From the NCBI GenBank assembly GCA_947574055.1, contig CANPIC010000005.1:1-64000 (forward strand): a DNA stretch of 64,000 bases, in the 5' to 3' direction. The position numbers and the translations under genes were made by a program. The stretch comes from an uncultured bacterium. GTDB taxonomy: Bacteria > Bacillota > Clostridia > Lachnospirales > Lachnospiraceae. The notes below the pieces were generated by a model. The model was not told the DNA's origin and searched no databases. It saw only the letters and a list, made by a program, of their open reading frames with translations. Below, piece after piece: positions 733-54,486 of the stretch (its first letter is position 1; each line of letters opens with the position of its first letter).

Positions 733-1425
733 TTACGCCTCAAAAATCTCCGGATAAAATTCATCGATCAGATTATCCAGAAATCCCTCTTCGATATTGA
801 TAAAACTGTGTGAAATGCGTTCGCGGATCAGTTCCGTACGCTTAAAGTATTTTTCTTCTTCCGCTGTGTCCGCCAATGACAGCCCGTTATCTATATTTTC
901 TGCCGTCAGGTTTTCCCGGCACCAGTTCATAATCTGCTCTTTGAGACTGTTTTCAGTCAGTGCTTTTTTCTTATAGGCTTTTGCCGACTGCATGGAACGG
1001 ATCCCTATTACAAGGAAAAGCAGGAACATGGCACCCATAACACCATAACTCAAAAAAGCCGCACTGCCACCCATACGGACAGGGAGCACACCCATAGCTG
1101 ATAACACCACGGCCAACAGGCCCAGTATCCCTACTCCTGTCAGTGTATAACCGGAATCCTTAAAGTCGGCCGCCTTCTGTGCATTGTCTTTGTAAGCCCC
1201 TGGCATTGCCGCCCTTGTCCGTATGATACCATCCGCAGGCGTCTTAGCGTCATCCGCTCCGTCCATCTCGGACACGGACTCCCCCTGCAAGGATTGCGGC
1301 TCTGTCTCCTGCGGCCATCTTTCCTCTGTTTCCTGTGGCAGCGTCTCTACCAGTTCACTGCCACAGTCAGCACATACCGTAATCCCTTCCACATACTCAT
1401 TTCTGCAATTCGGACACCATGCCAT
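733..1425 (-). CDS. Zinc-ribbon protein with two transmembrane segments
   Basis: The 230-residue product starts with a zinc ribbon (MAWCPNCRNEY, then CADCG around residues 18-21), giving a CX2C...CX2C metal site. A low-complexity, Glu/Gln/Thr-rich linker runs to about residue 90. Two hydrophobic helices follow (about residues 98-115 and 122-142), then a charged helical C-terminal domain ending ...FYPEIFEA. I do not recognise a named family beyond the ribbon, and the role is unknown. The start is fixed by AGGAGG eight nucleotides before the ATG. It sits between nfnB and rlmH, and the whole 134-nt gap to nfnB is filled by the structured element described at 1426-1540. Confidence 0.8.
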   Translation of the reverse strand: MAWCPNCRNEYVEGITVCADCGSELVETLPQETEERWPQETEPQSLQGESVSEMDGADDAKTPADGIIRTRAAMPGAYKDNAQKAADFKDSGYTLTGVGILGLLAVVLSAMGVLPVRMGGSAAFLSYGVMGAMFLLFLVIGIRSMQSAKAYKKKALTENSLKEQIMNWCRENLTAENIDNGLSLADTAEEEKYFKRTELIRERISHSFINIEEGFLDNLIDEFYPEIFEA

Positions 1426-1540
1426 GGTTGTTCCTCCTATTCCAGTACCGCATCCAGCCTTCCGCTACCTCTTCCCCGGAATGTTTCACGTCTGCTCTGC
1501 AGCCGTTCCTCATTCCATGCAGCGTCCCCGGGATGCTGTT
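1426..1540 (-). promoter_or_regulatory. Candidate structured leader element, copy A (before zinc-ribbon gene)
   Basis: Read as minus-strand RNA this fills the nfnB-to-zinc-ribbon gap and folds as one long hairpin. P1 is GCAUCC/GGAUGC (1531-1536 with 1450-1455). P2 is CGCUGC/GUAGCG. P3 is GGAAUG/CAUUCC. The tip helix is CUGC-AGA-GCAG. The same layout recurs between rnfC and rnfD with different bases in P2 and P3 that still pair. Eleven nucleotides separate GGAUGC from AGGAGG in both places, and the ribosome binding site to start spacing also matches. This is inferred by eye from two sequence types. It could be a cis-acting RNA or a hairpin-type mobile repeat. Confidence 0.6.
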
Positions 1541-1559
1541 TCCAGTACCGCGTTTGTTT

Positions 1560-2945
1560 TTATTTCCCGCTCAGGTATTCGTCAATGCCTTTTGCGCCCG
1601 CTTTGCCGGCTCCCATCGCCAATATGACGGTGGCAGCACCGGTCACGGCGTCACCGCCGGCATAGACGCCTTCTTTTGTAGTCTTGCCGTGCTCTTCGTC
1701 TGCGATGATGCATTTCCATTTATTTACTTCCAGTCCTTCTGTCGTGGAAGAGATCAGTGGATTGGGCGATGTTCCCAGGGACATGATCACCGTGTCTGCA
1801 TCAATGACAAATTCCGAATCCGGAATCACGACCGGTCTTCTTCTGCCGGAATCATCCGGTTCTCCCAGTTCCATACGGATACACCTGATACCGCTGACCC
1901 AGCCATTTTCATCAGCAAGAATCTCCACCGGATTTGTCAGCAGATCAAATATGATCCCCTCTTCTTTGGCATGATGTACTTCTTCCACTCTGGCGGGAAG
2001 TTCTTCCTCGCTTCTTCTGTAGACAATATGTACTTCGCTTCCCAGACGCAGTGCTGTCCTGGCCGCGTCCATAGCCACATTGCCTCCGCCCACCACGGCC
2101 ACCTTCTTGCCATGCATGATAGGTGTCCTTGCCTTTTCGTCAAAGGCCTTCATCAGATTGCTTCTCGTCAGATATTCATTGGCAGAAAATACACCATTGG
2201 CCTGTTCTCCCGGAATCCCCATAAACTTGGGAAGACCCGCACCGGAACCGATAAAGACTGCGTCAAATCCTTCCTCTTCCATCAACTCATCAATGGTCGT
2301 GGATTTGCCGATCACCACATCCGTTTCGATCTTTACCCCCAGCGCCATTACGTTTTCAATCTCTCTGCGCACCACTTTTTCCTTGGGAAGACGAAATTCC
2401 GGAATCCCGTACACCAGTACGCCTCCCGCCTCGTGAAGTGCTTCAAAGATGGTCACGTCATAGCCCATTCTCGCCAGATCACCCGCACAGGTAAGCCCTG
2501 CCGGGCCAGAGCCGATCACAGCTACTTTTTTACCCTTCTTTTCCGCCGCCCCGTCCGGCTTTATGCCGTTCTCACCGGCCCAGTCGGCAGCAAAACGTTC
2601 CAGTTTACCGATAGAAACGGGATCTCCTTTGATCCCTCTGATACACTTTCCTTCACACTGGCTCTCCTGGGGGCACACCCGGCCACACACTGCCGGAAGT
2701 GCGCTGGAATTGCTGATAATCCGGTAAGCCTCTTCCATCTTTCCCTCTTTGATCTGTGCGATAAAACCGGGGATATCAATGGCTACCGGACAGCCTTTGA
2801 CACACTGGGCATTTTTGCAGTTGATACACCGCGCCGCTTCCTCCATCGCCTCTTCCCGGTTGTACCCCAGGCATACTTCCTCAAAATTGCAGGCACGCAC
2901 CGCGGGTTCCTGCTCACGTACCGGTACTTTCTTTAACACATCCAT
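1560..2945 (-). CDS. nfnB: NADH-dependent reduced ferredoxin:NADP+ oxidoreductase subunit B (NfnB; GltA-like)
   Basis: The 461-residue flavoprotein belongs to the glutamate synthase small-chain family. The N-terminal third carries two cysteine clusters (CINCKNAQC... near residue 40 and CGRVCPQESQCEGKC near residue 88) for [4Fe-4S] centres. An FAD-binding motif follows (VAVIGSGPAGL, about residue 142), then an NADP-binding motif (VAVVGGGNVAMDAA, about residue 283). GltA-like small chains are often annotated as glutamate synthase. Here the gene directly follows a NfnA/SudB-type subunit with a TAATG stop-start overlap, and that pairing is typical of NfnAB, the electron-bifurcating transhydrogenase. 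No glutamate synthase large subunit is in the window. NfnB would hold the bifurcating FAD and the NADP(H) site. Confidence 0.88.
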   Translation of the reverse strand: MDVLKKVPVREQEPAVRACNFEEVCLGYNREEAMEEAARCINCKNAQCVKGCPVAIDIPGFIAQIKEGKMEEAYRIISNSSALPAVCGRVCPQESQCEGKCIRGIKGDPVSIGKLERFAADWAGENGIKPDGAAEKKGKKVAVIGSGPAGLTCAGDLARMGYDVTIFEALHEAGGVLVYGIPEFRLPKEKVVRREIENVMALGVKIETDVVIGKSTTIDELMEEEGFDAVFIGSGAGLPKFMGIPGEQANGVFSANEYLTRSNLMKAFDEKARTPIMHGKKVAVVGGGNVAMDAARTALRLGSEVHIVYRRSEEELPARVEEVHHAKEEGIIFDLLTNPVEILADENGWVSGIRCIRMELGEPDDSGRRRPVVIPDSEFVIDADTVIMSLGTSPNPLISSTTEGLEVNKWKCIIADEEHGKTTKEGVYAGGDAVTGAATVILAMGAGKAGAKGIDEYLSGK

Positions 2946-15512: not shown

Positions 15513-15563
15513 AACGGGGCAGCTTCTGGCAGATTATCATAATCTGTCAGAAGCTGCCCCGTT
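15513..15563. terminator. Strong bidirectional terminator hairpin
   Basis: A very long inverted repeat (AACGGGGCAGCTTCTG... with its complement ending at 15563) forms a stem of about 22 bp with one wobble pair around a short loop. It separates the plus-strand tetR gene from the convergent beta-propeller gene. Confidence 0.75.
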
Positions 15564-22729: not shown

Positions 22730-23149
22730 TCAGTCATTGCACCCGCAGGGGGAACAGGGAAATACAGGCGGTCTGGGAGGCATCGGCGGCACCGGATCAC
22801 ACCCGCAGCCACAGTTATTGTCACAATCGCAGCCCGTATGACAGCCGCAGTTATTAGTATTGTCATTGCCGCAGCCACAGCCGATATTGATGCCACAATT
22901 ATTATTATTATCATTGCCACAATTACAGCCACAGCCGATGTTGATGCCGCAATTATTGTCATTGCCACTGTCACAGCCACAGCCCACATTGGCACCACAA
23001 TTATTATTGTCATTACACCCGCAGCCAACGTTGATATTGCAGTCCGTATGACAGCCACAGCCATTGTTATTGCCACAGCCACAGCCGATGCTGCATCCCT
23101 TACCATGATGACAGCAACAGATTAAAATGAGCCAGCATAAAAAATTCAT
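22730..23149 (-). CDS. Cysteine/glycine/asparagine-rich repeat protein, possible spore-surface protein
   Basis: I count 32 cysteines in 139 residues. The N-terminus (MNFLCWLILICCCHH) is hydrophobic. The body is built from imperfect repeats of about 16 residues with the pattern NNCGINIGCGCN. The tail is Pro-rich, ending PCSPCGCND. AGGAG stands 10 nt before the ATG, and a sigma-K-like promoter lies upstream, so the frame is believable although both strands have long open frames in this repeat. I know no named family. Candidates are a disulfide-crosslinked spore coat or exosporium protein, or a metal-binding protein. The regular repeats and the promoter favour the first. Confidence 0.7.
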   Translation of the reverse strand: MNFLCWLILICCCHHGKGCSIGCGCGNNNGCGCHTDCNINVGCGCNDNNNCGANVGCGCDSGNDNNCGINIGCGCNCGNDNNNNCGINIGCGCGNDNTNNCGCHTGCDCDNNCGCGCDPVPPMPPRPPVFPCSPCGCND

Positions 23150-51376: not shown

Positions 51377-51980
51377 TGCTCATCCCTCCTCCCAGTACAT
51401 TCTGAAAATAACACAGACCTGCATTGACTGCATCCACGACTGCATTGGTCGTAATCGTGGCGCCGCTGATGGCATCAATCTGATCTCCGGATACGGCACC
51501 TGTCTTTGTATAGGTAAAGGCAGCCGCCTGCTTCTCCGCAAACTGCGGCTTCAGGACCTCTTCCGCCCGCATCCCCAGGCCCGGTGTCTCGGAAATAGCC
51601 AGCAGAGAAATACCGTTGAGTGTTCCGTCTTTGCGGACCCCCATGGAGAAGCGGATGTCCCCGTTATAACCATCATGAGATGTCATGATAATCACATAAC
51701 CAAGATCATCTCCCGCACTTCCTTTGGCCGCCATCACTTCGTCAATGGACGCTTTGTCATAGCCGTTCTGGGCAAGTACGGCATAGGAGGCGTCCTCACT
51801 GCCGGTCAGTGTCTCAAACTCCGCCGCGTCCGCAAATACTTCCTGGCAGGATTCCCGCTTCGCTCTGGCCTCCTGCTCTGCAATGGGCTCCTTTGTCACA
51901 TCATAGACGAAACCGAGAATGGCACCCGCTATGACAGTAATGGCAAAAAGGATCGCTGCATCTTTTAACATACTTTTCAT
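51366..51980 (-). CDS. rnfG: Rnf complex subunit RnfG
   Basis: The 204-residue subunit has one N-terminal membrane helix (residues 9-28) and an extracytoplasmic FMN domain. The flavinylation motif is visible as DAISGATIT near residue 175, where Thr carries covalent FMN. It overlaps rnfD by 4 nt (ATGA) and rnfE by 11 nt. Confidence 0.94.
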   Translation of the reverse strand: MKSMLKDAAILFAITVIAGAILGFVYDVTKEPIAEQEARAKRESCQEVFADAAEFETLTGSEDASYAVLAQNGYDKASIDEVMAAKGSAGDDLGYVIIMTSHDGYNGDIRFSMGVRKDGTLNGISLLAISETPGLGMRAEEVLKPQFAEKQAAAFTYTKTGAVSGDQIDAISGATITTNAVVDAVNAGLCYFQNVLGGGMSNES

Positions 51981-52909
51981 GCCTTCTCCCCTCCTTTACC
52001 AAACGCTTTGGGAAGCGTTACTTTCTCAATCAAAGGCACCAGAAGGTTTCCCAGTATAATGGCATAGGACACGCCCTCTGCCCCCGGTGCAAACAAGCGG
52101 AAAATCCCTGTCATAATGCCCAGGAAAATCCCGAATACATACTGTCCTTTTTTCGTAATGGGCCTCGTCACATAATCCGTAGCCATGAAAAAAGCCCCCA
52201 GCATTAGGCCGCCGCCCGCAAGCTGCGCAGAAAGATAGGCACTGTCAAAGCCCCTGCCGCCAAATAAAACAAGAAAGATCACAAAACTGACTATGTAGCT
52301 GCCCGGTATCCGCAGGTCAATGATATCTAACAGAATCAACAGACAGGCCCCCATCACCAGTGCCACCATGGAGGTCTCCCCGATCGTTCCGCCGGTATGT
52401 CCCACTATCATATCCATCACATTGACAGTCTCTCCTGCCTTCAGCGCTGTCAAAGGTGTGGCCCCCGTATAGGCATCGCAGTCAAAATTTGTCATAATGG
52501 ATGTAAATGAGATCAGCAGAAAACATCTGGCTCCCAGCGCAGGATTCATAAAATTCTGTCCCAGTCCGCCAAACAGCATTTTCACCACCAAAATGGCAAA
52601 CACACTGCCGACCACGCCGATCCAGAGCGGTGCCCCCGGCGGCAGATTCAGCGCCAGCAAGAGACCGGTGACAGTAGCCGACAGATCATAGACCGTCACC
52701 CTTTTTTTCATCAGCAGTTCATAAATATACTCCGTCAATACGGCAGACGCTACCGTCACCAATATGAGGAGCAGTGCATGCAATCCGAAATTATATACGC
52801 CAAAAAACGTGGCCGGAAGCAACGACAACACAACTGCGCCCATAATGCTTCCTGTCGTGGCCTTGGAACGAATATGCGGATTGGATGACACTTTCATCAG
52901 ATCGCTCAT
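51977..52909 (-). CDS. rnfD: Rnf complex subunit RnfD
   Basis: The 310-residue membrane subunit has about ten helices and the FMN attachment motif DAYTGATPLTAL near residue 145. AGGAGG 7 nt before the ATG at 52909 fixes the start. A longer open frame extends upstream through the duplicated element and is rejected. The leader carries the structured element described at 52929-53138. Confidence 0.95.
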   Translation of the reverse strand: MSDLMKVSSNPHIRSKATTGSIMGAVVLSLLPATFFGVYNFGLHALLLILVTVASAVLTEYIYELLMKKRVTVYDLSATVTGLLLALNLPPGAPLWIGVVGSVFAILVVKMLFGGLGQNFMNPALGARCFLLISFTSIMTNFDCDAYTGATPLTALKAGETVNVMDMIVGHTGGTIGETSMVALVMGACLLILLDIIDLRIPGSYIVSFVIFLVLFGGRGFDSAYLSAQLAGGGLMLGAFFMATDYVTRPITKKGQYVFGIFLGIMTGIFRLFAPGAEGVSYAIILGNLLVPLIEKVTLPKAFGKGGEKA

Positions 52910-52928
52910 TATAGTTCCTCCTAATATA

Positions 52929-53034
52929 GTTCCGCATCCGCCCTCCCAATGCCCCTTCTCTCGAACGTTTTCTGTCTGCTTCGCAGCCATAAATCGTTCC
53001 GGCACTGTACGGGCTTGATGCTGTTTTTATTTCT
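52929..53034 (-). repeat. Structured element, copy B1 (tandem duplication, proximal to rnfD)
   Basis: This 106-bp unit is followed by a second copy that is identical over 104 bp. On the minus strand its fold keeps the plan of copy A: P1 GCAUC/GAUGC (53017-53021 with 52934-52938), P2 CAGUGCC/GGCAUUG, P3 GAACG/CGUUC and tip CUGC-GAA-GCAG. GGAUGC lies 11 nt before AGGAGG of rnfD, as in copy A. Confidence 0.75.
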
Positions 53035-53138
53035 GTTCCGCATCCGCCCTCCCAATGCCCCTTCTCTCGAACGTTTTCTGTCTGCTTCGCAGCCATAAAT
53101 CGTTCCGGCACTGTACGGGCTTGATGCTGTTTTTATTT
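53035..53138 (-). repeat. Structured element, copy B2 (tandem duplication, distal to rnfD)
   Basis: This is the 104-bp exact duplicate of copy B1, with its P1 arms at 53040-53044 and 53123-53127. It has no ribosome binding site of its own. Perfect identity means a recent duplication or active homogenisation. Confidence 0.8.
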
Positions 53139-53169
53139 GTAACATGTCAGCTTCTCTGCGCTGTTATAT

Positions 53170-54486
53170 TTATTTTTTCTTTTTAGCAAGCTGCATTTTG
53201 CGCATGGATTTTATTTCCTGGGTCAGGGGGCGCTTGGCCGGGCAGATATAGCTGCAGCAGCCACATTCACAGCACTCCATGCCATGATAAGCAAGGAATT
53301 TCTCTTCCTCGCCATGCTCCGCAAAATCGGCCAGTTTGCTGGGCAGCACCCGGCCGGGACATACTTCTACGCATCTTCCGCAGTTGATGCAGGGGCCCGG
53401 GGTGTATCTGGCCACCTCATCCCTTGTCATACACAGCAAGGCCGATGAAGTCTTGGTTGTAGGCACATCCAGTCCAAACAGGGCAAATCCCATCATCGGA
53501 CCACCGGATACTATTTTTTCCGGTTCTGTCTTAAAACCACCTGCCTCTTCGATCAGTTCATGATAATTGGTGCCGATCCTGACAATGAAATTACGCGGAT
53601 CAGCCACCGCATCCCCTGTCACTGTGACAATGCGATGCATAAGTGGCTTATTCTCCCGCACTGCCTGATTGATTGCCACGATCGTATCCACATTATCCAC
53701 GATACATCCCGCATCCGCCGGAAGCATGCTCGAATTGATCGCCCGCCCTGTAGTCGCATAAATCAGCTGCCGCTCGGCTCCCTGGGGATATTTGGTCTGC
53801 AGAGCCTTCACCTGAATATCCGGTTCGTCTTTCACCAGTTTCTTCAGCGCCTCAATGCAGTCCGGCTTGTTATCTTCCACGGCCAGAATCCCTTTCGCAC
53901 GGTCAAAGAGGCGCAGGATCACCTTCATACCCGCCACGATCTTCTCCGGCTCTTCGAGCATACGGCGATAATCCGATGTCAGATAGGGTTCACATTCCGC
54001 ACAATTGGCAATGACATATTCTATTTTTTCCGGTTCCTTTGGTGACAGCTTGACATGCGTGGGGAACCCGGCGCCGCCCATTCCCACTATGCCGGCCTCG
54101 CGGATCTTTCCCACAATCTCTTCTTTTGTCATTTCTTCCAGCTGCCTGCAGGGACCATAGTCCACCTCTTCATACAGACCATCATTTTCCACAACAATAC
54201 AGTTCACCATGTCACCTGTCACCACACGCCTGGGTTCGATCACTTTGACCGTCCCCGACACCGTGGCATAAATCGGCGCAGATACAAATCCGCCGGCCTC
54301 CGCGATCTTCTGCCCGGTCAGCACACGATCTCCCTTCGCCACAACAGGCACTGCCGGCGCACCGATATGCTGTGACATGGGATATACCAGGTCACCTTTC
54401 GGCAATATGGCTTTCATCGGTTTATCCTTGGACAGATCTTTTCCGTCATAGGGATGTATCCCGCCCGTAAATGTCAGTCTCGCCAT
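53170..54486 (-). CDS. rnfC: Rnf complex subunit RnfC
   Basis: The 438-residue subunit binds NADH and FMN. The nucleotide motif GMGGAGFPTHVK is near residue 136, and the C-terminal clusters CINCGRCVEVCP and CCECGCCSYICP start near residue 365. It opens the operon, with GAGGGG before its ATG. It passes electrons from reduced ferredoxin on to NAD+. Confidence 0.96.
   Translation of the reverse strand: MARLTFTGGIHPYDGKDLSKDKPMKAILPKGDLVYPMSQHIGAPAVPVVAKGDRVLTGQKIAEAGGFVSAPIYATVSGTVKVIEPRRVVTGDMVNCIVVENDGLYEEVDYGPCRQLEEMTKEEIVGKIREAGIVGMGGAGFPTHVKLSPKEPEKIEYVIANCAECEPYLTSDYRRMLEEPEKIVAGMKVILRLFDRAKGILAVEDNKPDCIEALKKLVKDEPDIQVKALQTKYPQGAERQLIYATTGRAINSSMLPADAGCIVDNVDTIVAINQAVRENKPLMHRIVTVTGDAVADPRNFIVRIGTNYHELIEEAGGFKTEPEKIVSGGPMMGFALFGLDVPTTKTSSALLCMTRDEVARYTPGPCINCGRCVEVCPGRVLPSKLADFAEHGEEEKFLAYHGMECCECGCCSYICPAKRPLTQEIKSMRKMQLAKKKK

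Follow-up and report, generated by a model that had tools for sequence, protein, structure and literature searches.

The stretch of DNA analysed here (the window) comprises 64,000 nucleotides from an uncultured Lachnospiraceae bacterium and carries, on its minus strand, three copies of an element of about 98 nt (AACAGCA…TGCGGAACT). One copy stands in the gap between an nfn-type oxidoreductase gene and a zinc-ribbon-like gene, and two stand in the gap between rnfC and rnfD (Table 1). Copies A and B2 terminate in TGCGG(T/A)ACT-N5-AGGAGG-N7-ATG, with 5 nt between the end of the element and the AGGAGG Shine–Dalgarno sequence (SD), and copy B1, which is identical to B2 over 104 nt, continues into B2. 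A preliminary description of this DNA had reported the same nested hairpin plan in the two gaps; its three copies were located as described, and the helices that it quoted (P1 GCAUCC/GGAUGC versus GCAUC/GAUGC, P2, and P3) and the identical spacings (11 nt from GGAUGC to AGGAGG and 7 nt from AGGAGG to AUG) read correctly.

Table 1. Copies of the element, their Shine–Dalgarno sequences, and the adjacent genes in the window.
Feature	Position	Strand	Basis or remark
Zinc-ribbon-like gene, 3′ of copy A (N-terminal CxxC…CxxC, 230 aa, ATG 1425)	733-1425	-	no Pfam match
SD AGGAGG of the zinc-ribbon gene, directly 3′ of the insertion	1433-1438	-	reading
Copy A, single full copy (AACAGCATC…GGATGCGGTACT), from AACAGC at 1540 to GGTACT at 1444	1444-1540	-	reading; covariance-model match 1433-1540, 84.8 bits
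Left remnant adjoining copy A on its 5′ side, a 3′-end fragment (GCGGTACTGGA) of another copy	1541-1552	-	reading
nfn-type oxidoreductase gene, 5′ of copy A	1560-2945	-	Fer4_20 + Pyr_redox_2
rnfD (NQR2_RnfD_RnfE), ATG 52909	51977-52909	-	Pfam PF03116, E 3e-109 (scanned from 52906)
SD AGGAGG of rnfD, insertion directly 5′	52917-52922	-	reading
Copy B2, SD-proximal unit of the tandem pair	52928-53025	-	model match 52917-53025, 97.8 bits
Linker GAAATAAA separating B1 from B2	53026-53033	-	
Copy B1, upstream unit of the tandem pair in the rnfC–rnfD gap	53034-53131	-	model match 81.9 bits
Possible decayed short copy (AACAGC GCAGAGAAGCTG…), rnfC stop to B1	53132-53165	-	inference from reading; extra DNA absent from congeners
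rnfC	53170-54486	-	

The consensus fold of the element is one long rod. P1 (AGCAUC/GAUGC) continues through CCC/GGG to a purine loop (GGA opposite GGA), beyond which lie P2, a one-sided bulge (GGAGAAG), a long and variable P3, and a tip that is often of the form CGC-GAAA-GCG. The tip CUGC-NNA-GCAG, which had been taken as constant, is present in A, B1, and B2, but genome-wide the commonest form is CGGACGC…GCGNCCG. All three stretches in the window fold more stably than shuffled sequence (z = −3.4, −3.9, and −4.4), and when copy A is folded together with its flanking sequence, the structure of minimum energy has outer pairs other than the P1 pairs GCAUCC/GGAUGC. Rfam 15 has no match in the window at gathering level, and none at E values up to 10 in seven copy-bearing loci.

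Two further features of the window were recorded in passing. Five imperfect 51-nt tandem repeats (GCCACAGCC…) at 22823-23086 look, when read by eye, like part of a cysteine- and asparagine-rich repeat protein encoded on the minus strand, and a near-perfect 25-bp inverted repeat with a 1-nt loop at 15513-15563 is probably a strong terminator or a cruciform.

Further copies in the window's own genome (G000; 2.85 Mb, 88% complete) were already seen by blastn, and a covariance model (R1) built from 15 own-genome copies, with the SD columns included, gives 91 matches at 60 clusters at an E value of 0.01 or better, which is a lower bound because many contigs end within arrays. Many dispersed non-coding copies are thus present in one genome. 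In addition, a genome of a different genus (G022; 94% complete) holds at least 63 matches (63 candidates scored), about a quarter to a third of which lie in one 100-kb stretch (contig C5, 76941-177121). In the set of 61 genomes searched together with G022, five were matched, the window's own included, two of them by weak single matches. Family-wide, 9 of 397 genomes, again including the window's own, were matched at an E value of 1e-4, and searches of the order (392 genomes) and the phylum (398 genomes) gave no match outside the window's own genome; in these large searches, nine candidates were scored per genome under strict filters, which makes for an undercount. Eight of nine congeners have no copy in a lenient model search with 150 candidates scored in each, and the ninth (G001) has eight matches.

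A DNA pattern (AACAGCA…TGCGGAACTNNAATAGG) is present in at least 118 stretches from at least 43 assemblies, as counted by accession prefix. Among the matches listed, nearly all of the records belong to Lachnospiraceae, gut Clostridia, or unnamed bacteria, and they include the isolates Acetatifactor muris DSM 23669, 1XD8-76, 1XD21-13, D16-50, and 526-35. The occurrence of the element in isolates as well as in metagenome-assembled genomes indicates that it is no assembly artefact. Viral contigs gave a single pattern match, which the model did not confirm at an E value of 0.001, and phage and plasmid records gave no match in a distant blastn search with one query each.

The element is fixed to ribosome-binding sites, as the preliminary description had proposed from two loci: a start codon lies directly 3′ of 230 of the 237 arrays tested. 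The start codon of an open frame is found within 26 nt of the model end at 55 of 57 arrays in G000 and at all 45 in G022, sets that are less biased towards the SD inasmuch as inner tandem members lacking an SD were also found, and the two exceptional G000 copies precede another copy of their own array. The corresponding figure in the named records is 130 of 135 arrays among the matches listed, these stretches having been found by a pattern that holds part of the SD and being biased towards SD sites. By the same loose rule, a start codon is found at 1424 of 4820 random positions. The offsets from array to start codon peak at 5–9 nt, and the orientation at start codons is always sense. Most arrays lie within operons: a long same-strand frame ends within 60 nt upstream in 32 of 53 arrays in G000, in 29 of 45 in G022, and, among the matches listed, in 75 of 122 in the named records.

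The genes downstream of the element in this genome number about 60 and, to judge from their translations, are unrelated; they include argH, gpsA, uppP, dnaG, ilvC, folP, and genes for PTS EIIA and HPr. The special tie between two ferredoxin/NAD(P)-linked operons that had been suggested is not supported, and the ferredoxin link is coincidental, because the downstream genes are unrelated housekeeping genes. The two element-rich genomes do not have a consistent set of such genes: only 2 of 55 downstream genes in G000 have close orthologues (69–73% identity) among 44 in G022, namely argH and gpsA, which is about the level expected by chance if each genome has about 2500 genes. The arrays at these two orthologues are 65% and 61% alike, i.e., at background level. 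A gene-specific, riboswitch-like role is therefore unlikely; among the three guesses offered at the outset (cis-regulatory RNA, RNA stability element, or hairpin-type mobile repeat), the last is the one supported. In the window's own genome, arrays are also carried by genes of a cluster (C10, 48000-67594) with a 599-aa VgrG/baseplate-like protein and PAAR-like (DUF4280-like), FHA-like, and PP2C-like proteins, which we read by eye as a putative domesticated contractile injection system.

Each unit consists of about 98–102 nt and a short locus-specific linker, and one to four near-identical units form an array (five in one congener array). Stop codons are scarcer in the units than under a first-order Markov model, on both strands: 87 of 91 units have an open frame, compared with 66.7 ± 4.1. 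Median identity within arrays is 0.97 in G000 (26 pairs) and 0.99 in G022 (13 pairs), whereas the medians between arrays are 0.62 and 0.79, respectively; G000 and G022 copies are 63% identical, and the between-array medians in at least 20 named assemblies with three or more arrays are 62–82%. Distinct sites in G000 are at most 78% alike, with three exceptions: 100% for what is probably one array divided between two contigs, 95% for another pair of arrays on C10, and 90% for a partial tandem pair on C35. The low identity between arrays and the high identity within them indicate that dispersal in G000 is old and that arrays were homogenised or amplified later. The arrays at gpsA and gatB in G022 are 96% alike, a likeness in sequence that suggests recent movement.

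The left side of the arrays differs from the right. Directly left of the first full copy, 122 of 229 arrays have a remnant of the 3′ end of the element with the array's own linker, compared with 3 of 225 control stretches lying 100 nt further upstream. Most remnants are 14–35 nt long, and some are short copies that have lost the inner hairpin. By eye, the 3′ strand of P1 (GGATGC) in a remnant or preceding copy could also pair across the linker with GCATCC, the 5′ strand of P1 in the next copy, as an alternative hairpin. In G001, two arrays (L316, 1-611, and L322, 1-260), read over two contig pairs with the pairing itself inferred, share an inner hairpin that each encloses in its own local P1 stem, as would result if arrays had exchanged hairpins or undergone conversion.

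A coding role can be set aside. There is no constant open frame, the three sense frames being open in 46, 53, and 65 of the 91 units, and the tandem periods are not multiples of three as a rule (20, 14, and 11 of 45 leave remainders of 2, 0, and 1).

Covariation, first noted in P2 and P3 of the window copies, is far above chance when further copies are added: the score of 15 own-genome copies is 0.397, compared with 0.143 ± 0.019 for shuffled alignments, and none of 500 shuffles reaches it. The proposed model search for homologues found many, with compensatory changes and at start codons. In the alignments of 91 own-genome copies (A3) and 60 G022 copies (A4), which, unlike alignment A2, were aligned to the model and so favour its structure, paired cells amount to 87.0% (65.0 ± 0.6 when shuffled) and 93.8% (84.9 ± 0.4), and the scores are 0.444 (0.137 ± 0.007) and 0.252 (0.104), respectively, again with none of 500 shuffles reaching them. 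Cells changed on both sides number 490 in the 91 copies, compared with 146.7 ± 12.7 after shuffling and no more than 135 in slid controls, and 142 in the 60 G022 copies, compared with 42.2 ± 8.0.

On the sense strand, G·U cells exceed A·C cells by 48:17 and 59:9 in two alignments, and this excess points to the transcribed strand as the one that folds. Overall, G·U cells make up 2–4% of cells in A3 and A4, which is unusually rare by the standard of other RNAs, despite much compensatory change. A neutral simulation of an idealised unit, which assumes a star tree, yields about 73% standard pairs at 63% identity, compared with 87% observed, and G·T and A·C at about 1:1. Within arrays, differing sites are fewer at paired (78/2631) than at unpaired positions (88/1745; p = 5e-4, the copy pairs not being independent). 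Hairpin-templated double mutation was considered as a source of the covariation and rejected: aligned copy pairs of more than 93% identity contain no double Watson–Crick change, so that the changes look sequential, and same-locus pairs of at least 85% identity contain four. Sense-strand pairing has been kept by compensatory change while the arrays diverged widely after dispersal, and this long retention argues that the RNA fold matters where the element stands.

Comparison of 12 genes in 39 orthologous gene-start stretches from five congeners reveals empty sites. The rnfC–rnfD gap is 11, 11, 11, 11, and 13 nt in the five congeners and 260 nt in the window, and rnfD of the congeners has a like SD that overlaps the rnfC stop. 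The corresponding congener gaps are 14, 15, and 93 nt for uppP (236 nt here), 17–62 nt for dnaG (347 nt here), 31–69 nt for yebC (220 nt here), and 79–81 nt for ilvC (218 nt here). Related genomes are thus polymorphic for insertion, the gap being short in five of five congeners at rnfD, two of three at uppP (14–15 nt), and four of four at dnaG. There are exceptions, namely deoD (89 nt here, 74–192 nt in congeners), single long congener gaps at gpsA (207 nt) and rsmD (246 nt), and folP, at which one of two congener gaps is 156 nt, compared with 97 nt here. In the clear cases, the usual spacing is kept 3′ of the SD and the extra DNA lies directly 5′ of it, the junction being judged by eye. The short orthologous gaps and the copy-free congeners together indicate that the arrays arrived by insertion at a precise position, immediately 5′ of the SD. 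The ends of the element, AGCATC and GATGC, are complementary and make up the hairpin base, and no clean target duplication was seen by eye in the empty-site comparisons. Copies have been inserted one-way, directly 5′ of the SD of many unrelated genes and mostly within operons.

These features are probably best explained by a dispersed, non-autonomous, SD-docked structured repeat of Lachnospiraceae that is tolerated or partly domesticated, and we regard this as the most likely reading. The element would spread by copying, and the SD AGGAGG, the sole motif common to the target leaders, may serve as a homology or recognition site at the precise right end; the left end, unlike the right, is ragged. 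This combination of ends would fit copying with no shared homology beyond the SD, either through template switching during DNA synthesis or off an RNA template. Arrays would then grow through local tandem duplication of the hairpin-prone unit, and the co-transcribed folded RNA may be tolerated or used by the host gene, selection thereby keeping the fold. If the element were purely selfish, inactive copies should have decayed, and the kept fold could equally mean a regulatory role in the host.

The second reading is rather unlikely. In it, the element is a cis-regulatory RNA shared by a regulon and is bound by a protein or small RNA that controls the translation or stability of about 60 mRNAs, host benefit having driven its spread. 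This reading would account for a fold kept in situ with compensatory changes and sense-strand G·U bias, for the constant distance to the SD, and for the invariable sense orientation. However, the element precedes unrelated genes, different ones in different genomes, eight of nine congeners live without the element, the arrays and remnants resemble insertion products, and the predicted accessibility of the SD is unchanged by the element (0.555 for native sequence, 0.541 when shuffled, and 0.562 with no element; 79 sites), so that a simple effect on translation is not apparent. The rnfD gap has no terminator and one weak promoter-like match on the plus strand. Because SD accessibility does not depend on the element and this gap has no terminator, a protein-bound role, a stability role, or plain tolerance remain.

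A bacterial analogue of SINEs or viroids, i.e., a geneless folded RNA of about 100 nt that is copied into DNA with the SD of the element-bearing mRNA as annealing site, is improbable. If this reading were true, every strongly initiated gene would be a target; the copying would have left its mark in multimer arrays whose 3′ end is precise and whose 5′ end is ragged, and the evolution of the element would be driven by selection for its RNA fold. RNA-templated copying by a retro-element or circular RNA, in which reverse transcription would start from the nicked CCTCCT strand, paired with the SD of an mRNA that carries the element, seems more doubtful still: it would suit the precise right and ragged left ends, the remnants of 14–35 nt, and the near-identical multimers, but RVT_1 was not found in G000, G022, or G205 and is present in G216, G304, G313, G001, and the element-free G007.

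Transposases fare worse. It is very unlikely that the element is a mini-element of the REP/RAYT or IS200/IS605 type, which a Y1 (HUH) transposase would place 3′ of CCTCC in the complementary strand; the hairpin anatomy and the precise, orientation-specific insertion by a short motif without obvious target duplication would be as expected, but Y1_Tnp was found neither in the element-rich G000 (88% complete) and G022 (94%) nor in G313, and it is present in G205, G216, G304, and the element-free G004. Least likely of all is a mini-element of an IS110-type RNA-guided DEDD transposase, since, although DEDD_Tnp_IS110 occurs in G000, G022, G205, G304, and G313 and IS900 of the same family targets translation-initiation signals, the domain was not found in G216, is present in the element-free G002 and G007, and belongs to proteins only 24% identical between G000 and G022, and seven IS110 loci searched contain no element match. 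Y1 transposase, reverse transcriptase, and IS110 were all rejected as movers for want of consistent co-occurrence with the element, with the proviso that incomplete assemblies could hide a gene.

The SD-docked repeat preferred here has several partial counterparts. REP/REPIN sequences, mobilised with a RAYT transposase, are small dispersed intergenic hairpins that are clustered and patchy by species, and the element resembles them in all three respects; it differs in its site, the SD, in its far longer rod, and in that Y1 transposase was not found in the two richest genomes. ERIC and Correia (NEMIS) sequences are operon hairpins of about 100 nt that are co-transcribed between genes, but they are not known to be tied to the SD, and copies of these sequences resemble one another much more closely. 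IS900, of the IS110 family, shares orientation-specific insertion at the ribosome-binding site, but is a coding insertion sequence of well over 1 kb that inserts between the ribosome-binding site and the start codon, whereas the element is non-coding, about 100 nt long, and 5′ of the SD. The accessible text of one article does not describe an SD target of IS900 (PMC8141618). Like the cis-regulatory leaders and riboswitches of Rfam, the element is a covarying structured leader upstream of the SD; unlike them, it has no Rfam match and is not tied to a pathway.

The preliminary description knew of no described family of this form, and none has emerged: Rfam gives no match, and searches of an open-access library on repeats, the SD, Lachnospiraceae and Acetatifactor, and IS900 yielded no description of the element. 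The BOX, RUP, and SPRITE repeats of pneumococci, in the portion of the source consulted, are small, interspersed, high-copy sequences that are structured when transcribed (PMC3049150). On that account, the element is like them in being short, high-copy, modular or tandem, limited to few related species, and probably parasitic but able to affect expression (PMC3049150). It belongs to this broad kind of small structured interspersed repeats, and is set apart from BOX and RUP, as far as they are described there, by its nearly constant position directly 5′ of the SD in sense orientation, by arrays in which whole hairpins are repeated, by a fold kept through strong covariation between arrays, and by ends for which no link to a resident insertion sequence was found (PMC3049150).

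With about 60 arrays, nearly all at ribosome-binding sites, close relatives that do not have them, and a fold kept despite changed letters, the element appears to be a family of small mobile RNA-forming repeats that has had no name so far. Most descriptions of small mobile repeats concern random intergenic sites, the 3′ ends of genes, or DNA motifs. A hairpin docked to the SD of about 60 genes would offer a natural system for how a genome absorbs structured RNA beside its start codons, and would show whether such insertions retune expression genome-wide and what machinery recognises the SD as a landing site. The element also breaks assemblies, many contigs ending in arrays, and may confuse searches for leaders and riboswitches in mouse-gut Lachnospiraceae.
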